A stretch of 35,090 bases of DNA from the IMG/VR virus record IMGVR_UViG_3300002447_000010, positions 1,963 to 37,052 of that record. One strand, 5' to 3'. Origin of the DNA: a virus. This document shows positions 1,422 to 10,013 of the stretch, piece after piece; position 1 is the first letter of the stretch; each line of letters begins with the position of its first letter. The translations under genes and the position numbers were made by a program. The notes under the pieces were generated by a model. The model made no database searches. It was not told the origin of the DNA and saw nothing but the letters and a program-made list of their open reading frames with translations.

Positions 1422-1493
1422 TGCGTGAAGGTGTAAATGGTTGCATACAGGTCTCATAAACCTAGAGGGGTGGTTCAAATCCACAACACGCTA
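1422..1493 (+). tRNA. tRNA with anticodon CAT (Met or Ile2)
   Basis: The cloverleaf can be drawn by hand. The acceptor strand GCGTG (1423-1427) pairs with CACGC (1487-1491). The D arm is GTGT/GCAT. The anticodon stem AGGT/ACCT encloses loop CTCATAA (1453-1459) with anticodon CAT. The T arm is GTGG-TTCAAAT-CCAC, with discriminator A1493. The terminal pairs 1:72 (T-T) and 7:66 (A-A) are mismatched and position 8 is A instead of T. CCA is not encoded. The 1:72 mismatch recalls initiator tRNAs, but the anticodon stem lacks the three initiator G-C pairs. An elongator Met or lysidine-modified Ile tRNA is equally possible. Confidence 0.75.
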
Positions 1494-1702: not shown

Positions 1703-2124
1703 GGGGGTGACTGGTTTTGACAGGTTACCAATAGTTAGTACAATCAGCACAGAGAGATAACTGTATAAAACTAAGGTGAATCATTTTAAATGGAAACACA
1801 AAAGAGAATGCCCAAGTACAAGCTAATATGAATGTAGTATTTAATCTTTTAGGAGATGATACACAAGAAGAAGCTTCTTATGAAGTAGAACTAGCTGTGG
1901 CTGCCTAACCAAAGAATAGGTGATTACCTCAACACTGGCAAGAGGTTAAATTTGCCATAGAAGGTTTGTATGATTCCTTTAAAAACATTCTGGTGGAATT
2001 GTTTACTTTACAGTAGACCCTAGAGTGCGCCTGTAGACTCTTTAAATAAGTATGGGGACAAAAGCTGTATAAATTGTATTAATGAAAGTAGATCTGGACA
2101 GGGGTTCGACTCCCCTCACCTCCA
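1703..2124 (+). ncRNA. ssrA: Phage-encoded tmRNA
   Basis: The 5' end GGGGGTGACTGGTTTTGACA is the near-universal tmRNA start. The 3' part GACAGGGGTTCGACTCCCCT with CACCTCC gives the T arm (stem 2100-2104/2112-2116) and the acceptor strand (2117-2123 pairing with 1703-1709, one G-U), with discriminator A2124. CCA is not encoded. Between them is a reading frame ending TAA 1906-1908. With resume codon GGA at 1852 the tag is GDDTQEEASYEVELAVAA, 18 residues; Bacteroidota tags usually begin with Gly, are near 10 residues and end ALAA. The ending AVAA should still be a degradation signal. The same frame is open further upstream to GCC 1810, so the exact resume codon is inferred. tmRNA rescues stalled ribosomes with SmpB. 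Confidence 0.95.
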
Positions 2125-7277: not shown

Positions 7278-10013
7278 ATGCCAAAATTATATAATGCACT
7301 ACAACTAAAATCAGGTGCAACTACAGAATATAATAGAATGGGTACACTTACCCAGCCTATTCAGTTTTTACTTGCTTCTCAAAAAAATGAGCAATGGGGA
7401 GCTTGGAATCTTGACTGGTTAGAAATGCAGGGTTTAAAACAAATCAGACGTAATGCGCGTAGATTGTTAAAAAACTACAAACTTGCAAATGGTATAATTG
7501 ACAAATCAGATTACATCGTTGAAGAAGATAATGAGTATTCAGAACTTATTGATACTCTTACAAAAGAGGATGTATCAGCTTTTGAGTTAAAGTTTTTTCC
7601 TATTATTCCTAATGTAATTAATGTTCTTACAGGTGAGTTTGCTAAAAGAAATGATAAGATTACATACAGAGCTGTAGATGATACATCTTTTAATGAGATG
7701 CTTGACAAAAAACGTGCAATGATTGAGGAAACTCTTGTTTCATATGGTGAACAAACTATGCAAGAAAATATTGCAAAGATGGGACTTAACCCTGAAGATC
7801 CTAAACAAGCAGAACAAGTACAACAAATGATGTCCCCTGAGAGTATTAAAACTCTTCCACAAATTGAGCAATTCTTTAAAAAAGATTATAGATCAATGGT
7901 TGAGCAATGGGCAGGTCATCAACATGCTGTTGACTCTGAAAGATTCTATATGAAAGAATTGGAGAACATGGCGTTTAGAGATATGCTTATTACTGATAGA
8001 GAGTTCTGGCATTTTAAATTAAATGAAGATGATTATGATGTAGAGGTATGGAACCCTGTTCTTACATTCTATCATAAATCTCCTGAAGCAAGATATGTAT
8101 CACAATCTAACTGGGTAGGAAGAATAGACTTAATGACTATATCTGATATTGTTGATAGATATGGTTACCTTATGGATAAAGATCAGATGCAACAACTTGA
8201 AGCAATCTATCCTGTAAAATCTGCAGGTTATGCTTTACCAGGTGTTCAGAATGATGGATCATTTTATGATTCTACAAGATCTCATGACTGGAATGTTGAA
8301 GGACCTTCTTTAGGTATGAGACAATTTATTGCACATAGAGATGCTGTACTTAATACAGGAGATGATATTATTTATAGAATCCTTAATGAGTCTGAAGATT
8401 TAATGGACTTTAGTAACTACTCTTTATTACGTGTTACTACAGCATACTGGAAATCTCAAAGAATGCTTGGGCATTTAACAAAGATTGATGAGAATGGTAT
8501 GGCGCATCAAACTATTGTTGATGAGAACTATAAGGTTACTGAAAAGCCTGTATATGATAACACTGTTCTTAAAAAGAAAACAAAAGACACTTTAATTTAT
8601 GGTGATCACATAGACTGGATTTGGATTAATCAGGTATGGGGTGGTGTTAAGATTGGTCCTAACAGACCTTCATTCTATGGTAACAATGATAACATGGGAT
8701 TCAAACCATTGTATCTAAATGTTGAACCTCTTAAGTTTCAGTTTAAAGGTGATAGCACATTATATGGTTGTAAGTTACCTGTTGAAGGATCTATATTCCA
8801 TGATAGAAATAGTACATCAAGAGCATTGGTTGATAAGATGAAACCATTTCAAATTGGATACAATCTTGTAAACAATCAGATATCAGATATCCTTATTGAT
8901 GAGCTAGGTACAGTTATCATGTTGGATCAGAATGCTTTACCACGTCACTCTATGGGTGAAGACTGGGGTAAAAACAATCTTGCAAAAGCATACGTTGCAA
9001 TGAAAGATTTTCAAATGTTACCTTTAGATACATCTATTACAAATACTGAAAATGGATTAAACTTTAACCATTATCAAGTTCTTAATTTAGAACAGACAAA
9101 CAGATTAATGTCAAGAATACAATTATCTAATTATTTTAAACAACAAGCATTTGAAGTTATTGGTATTACACCACAACGTATGGGTCAAACTCTTAGTCAA
9201 GAAACTGCTACAGGAGTTGAGCAAGCTATTAACATGAGTTTCTCTCAAACAGAGATGTACTTTGTTAATCACTCAGAATACCTTATGCCACGTGTACATC
9301 AAATGCGTACAGATTTAGCACAGTACTATCATAGTAATAAACCAAGTGTTAGATTACAATATATCACAAGTCTTGATGAAAAGATTAACTTTGAAATGAA
9401 TGGTACAGATTTATTATCAAGAGATTTAAATGTGTTTACATCTACAAAAGTAAATCAACGTGACATTACTGAAAAAATAAGATCTCTTGCGTTATCTAAT
9501 AACACAGCTGGTGCATCTATATATGATTTAGGAAATATTATCAAAGCTGATTCTCTTGCAGAAATTACTCACACTCTTAAAACTATTGAAGAAAAAACTA
9601 ATGCACAACGTGAACAAGATCAACAAGCTCAACAACAGCAGATTCAAATGCAAGAGCAAGCAGAGACTGAAAGACAAGAATCTAAACAGAAGTTTGATGC
9701 AGAACAAAATGCTCTTACTAGAGAGTCTAATGAGCGTATTGCTGATGTTAGAGCATCTGTTGCAACAGGGTCTCAAGATTTTAATCAGAATAGTCAAAAT
9801 GATTATATTGACACCTTACAATATCTTGATAAAAAAGAAGTTAACAGTCAAAACATTAACTTCAAGAAACAACAAGAAATTAATAAGCAAGCCAATGCAG
9901 AAATCAACAATAATTTAAAACGTCAAGAGTTACAAACAAGAGAGAACATTGCCAATAAACAAGTTCAAATTGCAATGACAAACAAAAACAAATATGACAA
10001 AAAGAAGTCATAG
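7278..10013 (+). CDS. Portal protein
   Basis: 911 residues, placed directly after TerL where portals lie. The body has the long alpha/beta pattern of portals: RNARRLLKNYKLANGIIDKSDY near residue 60, a stem region before it and a central wing. The ending of the body is the long LNLEQTNRLMSRIQLSNYFKQQAFEVIGITPQRMG segment, with the typical GITPQRMGQ-x5-ATG motif. The last ~150 residues are Gln/Asn/Glu-rich coiled coil, fitting the barrel domain of P22-type portals. It forms the ring through which DNA enters and leaves and to which the tail rings attach. The stop is TAG, followed by a 110-base gap. Confidence 0.88.
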   Translation: MPKLYNALQLKSGATTEYNRMGTLTQPIQFLLASQKNEQWGAWNLDWLEMQGLKQIRRNARRLLKNYKLANGIIDKSDYIVEEDNEYSELIDTLTKEDVSAFELKFFPIIPNVINVLTGEFAKRNDKITYRAVDDTSFNEMLDKKRAMIEETLVSYGEQTMQENIAKMGLNPEDPKQAEQVQQMMSPESIKTLPQIEQFFKKDYRSMVEQWAGHQHAVDSERFYMKELENMAFRDMLITDREFWHFKLNEDDYDVEVWNPVLTFYHKSPEARYVSQSNWVGRIDLMTISDIVDRYGYLMDKDQMQQLEAIYPVKSAGYALPGVQNDGSFYDSTRSHDWNVEGPSLGMRQFIAHRDAVLNTGDDIIYRILNESEDLMDFSNYSLLRVTTAYWKSQRMLGHLTKIDENGMAHQTIVDENYKVTEKPVYDNTVLKKKTKDTLIYGDHIDWIWINQVWGGVKIGPNRPSFYGNNDNMGFKPLYLNVEPLKFQFKGDSTLYGCKLPVEGSIFHDRNSTSRALVDKMKPFQIGYNLVNNQISDILIDELGTVIMLDQNALPRHSMGEDWGKNNLAKAYVAMKDFQMLPLDTSITNTENGLNFNHYQVLNLEQTNRLMSRIQLSNYFKQQAFEVIGITPQRMGQTLSQETATGVEQAINMSFSQTEMYFVNHSEYLMPRVHQMRTDLAQYYHSNKPSVRLQYITSLDEKINFEMNGTDLLSRDLNVFTSTKVNQRDITEKIRSLALSNNTAGASIYDLGNIIKADSLAEITHTLKTIEEKTNAQREQDQQAQQQQIQMQEQAETERQESKQKFDAEQNALTRESNERIADVRASVATGSQDFNQNSQNDYIDTLQYLDKKEVNSQNINFKKQQEINKQANAEINNNLKRQELQTRENIANKQVQIAMTNKNKYDKKKS

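Follow-up and report, generated by a model that had tools for sequence, protein, structure and literature searches.

RESULTS

A complete tmRNA gene in the window

The stretch of viral DNA analyzed here (the window, 35,090 nucleotides) derives from a 42-kb virus fragment and carries a complete, one-piece tmRNA gene on its plus strand, ending at position 2124 or 2125 (Table 1). The gene at 1703-2125 was the single gene call made by ARAGORN in the window, and the covariance model RF00023 (Rfam release 15) matched the same gene over model positions 1 to 374 with 77.8 bits (E value, 1e-28; curated cut-off, 47 bits). Both programs therefore confirm the tmRNA that had been proposed at 1703-2124 from the letters alone, and the acceptor pairing, the T arm and the tag frame ending AVAA-TAA described in that sequence-only reading are all present. 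The acceptor stem comprises 7 bp (GGGGGUG/CACCUCC) and includes the G3-U70 pair, which marks tmRNA for alanine charging; GGGGUUCGACUCCCC forms the T arm. In place of an encoded CCA the gene has ACAA. The sequence of the first pseudoknot region, PK1 (CAGAGAGATAACTGT...AAACTAAGGTGA), was common to the phage tmRNAs with long tags in our alignment and differed from that of the host tmRNAs, which lack it. The window region 1703-2124 is thus a true tmRNA.

Two further features were seen near this end of the window. A tRNA-like gene with a CAU anticodon (1422-1493, plus strand) scored 27.0 bits, against the Rfam cut-off of 29, and was not called by ARAGORN; an open reading frame that resembles thioredoxin and contains the motif CAPC lies on the opposite strand at the window edge (2-241).

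Table 1. Features of the tmRNA gene and its tag frame, in window coordinates
Feature	Position	Strand	Basis
tmRNA gene, mature part to discriminator A	1703-2124	+	ARAGORN; RF00023, 77.8 bits
Acceptor stem, 5' strand GGGGGUG, carrying G3 of G3-U70	1703-1709	+	Sequence; RF00023 alignment; stem geometry in relatives
PK1 region, CAGAGAGATAACTGT...AAACTAAGGTGA	1749-1779	+	Host and phage tmRNAs aligned
Resume determinant TAAAT, A at -4	1787-1791	+	84 tmRNA frames; host alignment; precedent of A86 in E. coli
Tag reading frame, 38 codons, GNTKENAQVQANMNVVFNLLGDDTQEEASYEVELAVAA; resume codon GGA 1792-1794	1792-1905	+	Comparison
Conserved core NAQVQANMNVVFNLL, predicted amphipathic helix	1807-1851	+	dN/dS of 0.24; AlphaFold2 helix, residues 3 to 22
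Variable linker GDDTQEEASYEV	1852-1887	+	Length differs among relatives
C-terminal ELAVAA, host-type degron-like end	1888-1905	+	AVAA in 45 family tags; host ALAA/AMAA
Tag stop TAA	1906-1908	+	Sequence
Acceptor stem, 3' strand CACCUCC, carrying U70	2117-2123	+	Sequence; RF00023 alignment; relatives

Resume codon and tag length

Comparison with about 80 relatives and with host tmRNAs gave, after the tmRNA-borne alanine, a predicted tag of 38 residues, GNTKENAQVQANMNVVFNLLGDDTQEEASYEVELAVAA. Its resume codon, GGA 1792-1794 (tmRNA position 90), follows PK1 and comes directly after TAAAT, with A at -4, and leads into an open frame and a stop (1787-1794; 1906-1908). In Escherichia coli, the choice of resume codon depends chiefly on A86, the A at -4 (PMC2481249). 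All 84 phage tmRNA frames had T at -5 and A at -4 and read TAAA(T/C) followed by GGC, GGA or GAC, a count in which the peptide rule partly presupposes the motif and for which the host alignment is the independent check. In the Flavobacteriia sample, A at -4 was present in all 35 host tmRNAs, and the resume codon of the hosts, located at tmRNA positions 94 to 99, was in most cases GGC with TTAA before it. This host codon aligns with the window's GGA 1792-1794; hence we take the window tag to be 38 residues long.

The alternative is a short tag of 17 or 18 residues that resumes at GAT 1855 or GGA 1852, the upstream segment being merely single-stranded RNA. GAT 1855, which also has A at -4, was the choice of ARAGORN and yields DDTQEEASYEVELAVAA (17 residues). 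The tag proposed in the sequence-only reading, GDDTQEEASYEVELAVAA (18 residues), corresponds to residues 21 to 38 of the frame read from GGA 1792. Immediately 5' of DDTQ, however, the window frame reads ENAQVQANMNVVFNLLG; codons upstream of 1852 are open, in frame and under amino acid selection in relatives, 1792 is where the resume codon of the hosts aligns, and the start points called by ARAGORN in close relatives (e.g., ANAQIEANMNKVFSLLGEEVAVAA) are inconsistent even among near-identical sequences. On these grounds the ARAGORN resume codon was rejected, and we consider a short tag very unlikely. The view that the tag is unusually long therefore survives in a stronger form, at 38 residues, while its proposed boundaries, length and start do not; a normal-length tag had been named as the outcome that would count against the reading, and the comparison moved the resume codon in the opposite direction. 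These sequence comparisons give good support to a tmRNA whose tag has 38 codons.

Tag lengths of 8 to 35 residues are given in reviews (PMC3968760, PMC8012679), and the commonest length is 10 in the 2025 tmRNA database (PMC11915505). The window tag, at 38 residues, is longer than the former span, a described range rather than a requirement, and the tags of its family have 26 to 50 residues. Tags of 9 residues, mostly of the GENNYALAA kind and ending in ALAA or AMAA, were found in 33 of 37 host tmRNA calls, which combine a class sample with ten chosen genomes, the latter, unlike the class sample, picked by tag pattern.

A family of long tags with a conserved core

Four routes were used to gather relatives (terminase gene, tmRNA 5' end, tmRNA similarity and tag-core patterns), and the pooled collections contained 79 distinct tag sequences. 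These share a layout of linker, core, linker and degron, in which the N-terminal linker has 1 to 12 residues, the core follows the consensus [NT]AQ[IV][EQK]ANMxxV[FHY][NS][LI][LI], and the part after the core has 8 to 31 residues. Most family tags keep the host-type xAA end, usually as AVAA, GLAA, GVAA, LVAA or QMAA; others end in AVGV (Calle, phi38:1), AMVA (phi14:2) or, in some cases, AEAA. AVAA, which had been singled out as an oddity, is the commonest ending in the family. The strong acidity noted earlier applies to the window tag (net charge, -6) and is particular to the window's lineage, the family mean being about -1.9.

AlphaFold2, given the alignment as input, predicted a helix over residues 3 to 22 (pLDDT of about 84 in residues 11 to 20) followed by a loose tail, a prediction of moderate confidence for a short peptide (mean pLDDT, 65.5). 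In such a helix V9, M13, V16 and L20, spaced by 4, 3 and 4 residues, would lie on one face.

Several relatives (L020, L025, L084 and others) have compact tmRNAs of about 320 nt. In many phage relatives about 127 nt follow the tag stop, compared with about 240 to 275 nt in Flavobacteriia hosts; the compact forms probably reflect loss of downstream pseudoknots alongside tag expansion.

Selection on the tag frame

In a set of 31 tags that had been found without using the tag, dN/dS was 0.24 in the core (0.13 to 0.41, bootstrap over columns) compared with 1.07 in the N-terminal linker. In the larger set the core positions Q, ANM and V were set by the search patterns; the 31-tag set is free of this effect, and the same positions were invariant there too. 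The +1 and +2 frames contained many stops and gave 0.66 and 2.07. When the set was thinned to nine representatives below 85% identity, the values were similar (core, 0.30; linker, 1.08). The C-terminal five residues (0.64) were less constrained than the core. These substitution patterns indicate that the long frame is translated and that its core is under amino acid selection.

Conservation for the sake of the RNA, either for its folding or for internal initiation at ATG 1828, would be an alternative account, and this ATG is indeed invariant in the set, with codons fairly uniform among close relatives. Synonymous change is nevertheless no less frequent in the core than it is in the linker (dS of 0.40 and 0.27, respectively), so that the constraint appears to act on the peptide, and the part of the core before the ATG is itself under amino acid selection (dN/dS of 0.18, 31 tags). 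We therefore regard an RNA-level explanation as highly improbable.

Distribution and phage context

The core was seen in at least three phage groups, represented by the cultured phages phi14:2, phi38:1 and FpV4. Among named phages it is carried by Cellulophaga phage phi14:2 (Steigviridae, Crassvirales), by phi38:1 and Calle_1, both Cellulophaga phages of the Pervagoviridae, and by Flavobacterium psychrophilum phage FpV4 and its relatives. In the latter (L003, 3006-3420) the tmRNA has a 35-residue tag and scores 58.2 bits with Rfam, is missed by ARAGORN and, where public records are annotated, coincides with no annotated feature. Contigs from 84,980 species of bacteria and archaea gave no match to the core pattern, and a profile HMM of the tag gave only two matches, both at chance level, in 99 Flavobacteriia genomes; a host origin of the long tag is thus unsupported. 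The tag profile had no match among solved structures and isolated weak matches only in Pfam, and a search for plasmid copies of the tag found none.

The window comes from a virus of Bacteroidota-type bacteria. Its terminase, portal and capsid bear only a distant resemblance to those of crAss-like phages: the terminase is about 25% identical to those of cr1_1 and cr55_1 over 86 to 88% of its length, and the capsid is 28% identical to that of Leptolyngbya phage Lbo-JY46 and about 22% to those of crAss-like phages, with no DNA similarity to named phages at the nucleotide level. The position of the tmRNA gene, about 3 kb upstream of the terminase, is conserved in near relatives. The same flanking genes are present in a sister group (L036, L040, L043, L051 and L053), and the members tested gave no tmRNA above the cut-off; since some sister phages do without it, the tmRNA gene is not essential. 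SmpB was not found in 22 relatives, and no phage-encoded SmpB was seen. One contig (G022, the record of L201) has two tmRNA genes (7947-8326 and 103911-104311) whose tags differ in their linkers and share the same core.

Other observations concern individual contigs. In L221, whose tag frame has the core, a GOLLD RNA (RF02032; 6195-6708) overlaps tRNAs; dense tRNA arrays adjoin the tmRNA or tag frame in L205 (7148-10038) and L219 (3148-8847); and L105 and L129, among the matches to the tmRNA 5' pattern, were called as tmRNAs of the permuted type with tags of an ordinary 10 residues (GEQVELAMAA).

DISCUSSION

We propose that, during infection, stalled ribosomes would be rescued by the phage tmRNA acting with SmpB and alanyl-tRNA synthetase from the host, the use of host SmpB being implied by the phages in which no SmpB was found. 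A rescued protein would gain alanine and a 38-residue tag in two parts, consisting of a short neutral linker, the conserved amphipathic helix NAQVQANMNVVFNLL, a variable flexible linker and the ...ELAVAA degron. The C terminus would be engaged by ClpXP-like proteases, and the helix may serve as a docking site for a conserved partner, for example, a protease domain or an adaptor. Because the core is conserved across phage groups, we infer that this partner is more likely to be a host protein than a phage protein. A structured, conserved segment joined by a free linker to a host-type xAA end is what would be expected of a two-part degron. The role of the tmRNA in infection, its use of host SmpB and docking by the helix are all putative, and we assign a probability of roughly 0.45 to the reading as a whole, that is, a functional phage tmRNA adding a tag with a host-type degron and a helical docking site. 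The earlier suggestion that tagged proteins could be sent to another protease fits in here, as a redirected or supplemented route of proteolysis is plausible; the companion suggestion that phage proteins might be spared gained no support.

The closest analogy is with the E. coli ssrA tag, which has an SspB-binding part and a ClpX-binding part; in both tags a partner-binding part would precede the C-terminal degron, and the phage helix would act like the SspB-binding half. The two tags differ in sequence, and the phage linker varies in length. The one-piece tmRNAs of Flavobacteriia (RF00023) share with the phage tmRNA the tRNA-like domain with G3-U70, PK1, the xAA tag end with its stop and, in almost the same position, a TAA(A/T)(T/C)-GGC resume site; however, their tags have 9 residues rather than 38, their PK1 differs in sequence, and the conserved, predicted helical core was seen in the phages but in none of the host genomes searched.

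Long tags are also known from Mycoplasma; these tags, as Gur and Sauer reportedly showed in 2008 (cited in PMC11986505), are degraded by Lon. Like the phage tag, they are well above the usual 10 residues, and the phage core is hydrophobic on one face, so that the helix could itself be a degron for Lon or another single protease, with no adaptor. To our knowledge, however, the Mycoplasma tags are unrelated in sequence to the phage tag and lack a host-type xAA end, an end that most family members keep and that would be needless in a pure Lon degron. We regard this explanation as unlikely. A further possibility is that the core is a nondegradative mark that serves to inhibit a host factor, or for sequestration or protection, with the AVAA end a relic. 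The variation in endings (AVGV, AMVA and AEAA) and the looser constraint on the last five residues are consistent with such a mark, but the xAA end of host tags is retained in most of the family, and we rate such a mark as rather unlikely.

The proposal can be taken one step further, although here we are decidedly tentative: many aquatic phages of Flavobacteriia may use their own tmRNA to equip every rescued protein with a helical peptide dedicated to docking, and its partner, a new adaptor, protease or host take-over route, may be one that host trans-translation does not use, which would make this a separate, phage-made branch of trans-translation.

tmRNA is known in 402 phages (PMC9004378), and phage-encoded tmRNAs have been described in mycobacteriophages, cyanophages and phage Melnitz as well as in Crassvirales cr7_1 and cr124_1. 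The existing annotation in the latter two, and in Cellulophaga phage Calle_1 (Pervagoviridae), runs counter to the notion that tmRNA is rarely described in crAss-like genomes. Ordinary tags without the core occur in cr7_1 (about 13 residues) and Streptomyces phage Faust (13 residues, by its annotation). In the passages found in two reports, the Calle tmRNA is simply counted (PMC8776804) and a Maribacter phage tmRNA is treated as an attachment site or spare copy (PMC11590407), with no mention of a tag; the 2025 tmRNA database scanned RefSeq viruses (PMC11915505). We found no description of a class of long, two-part tags in the open literature searched. Phage tmRNAs, including those of crAss-like phages, are thus already known, and the long two-part tag class appears to be new. 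These long phage tags are overlooked or misread by automatic tag calling and in existing records.

In conclusion, a selected core that several phage groups have in common, and that no host genome searched contained, suggests a role for the phage tmRNA beyond that of a replacement copy of the host molecule. The core peptide (GNTKENAQVQANMNVVFNLLG) is a concrete bait for the missing partner, and the cultured phages phi14:2, phi38:1 and Calle make the tag testable now.
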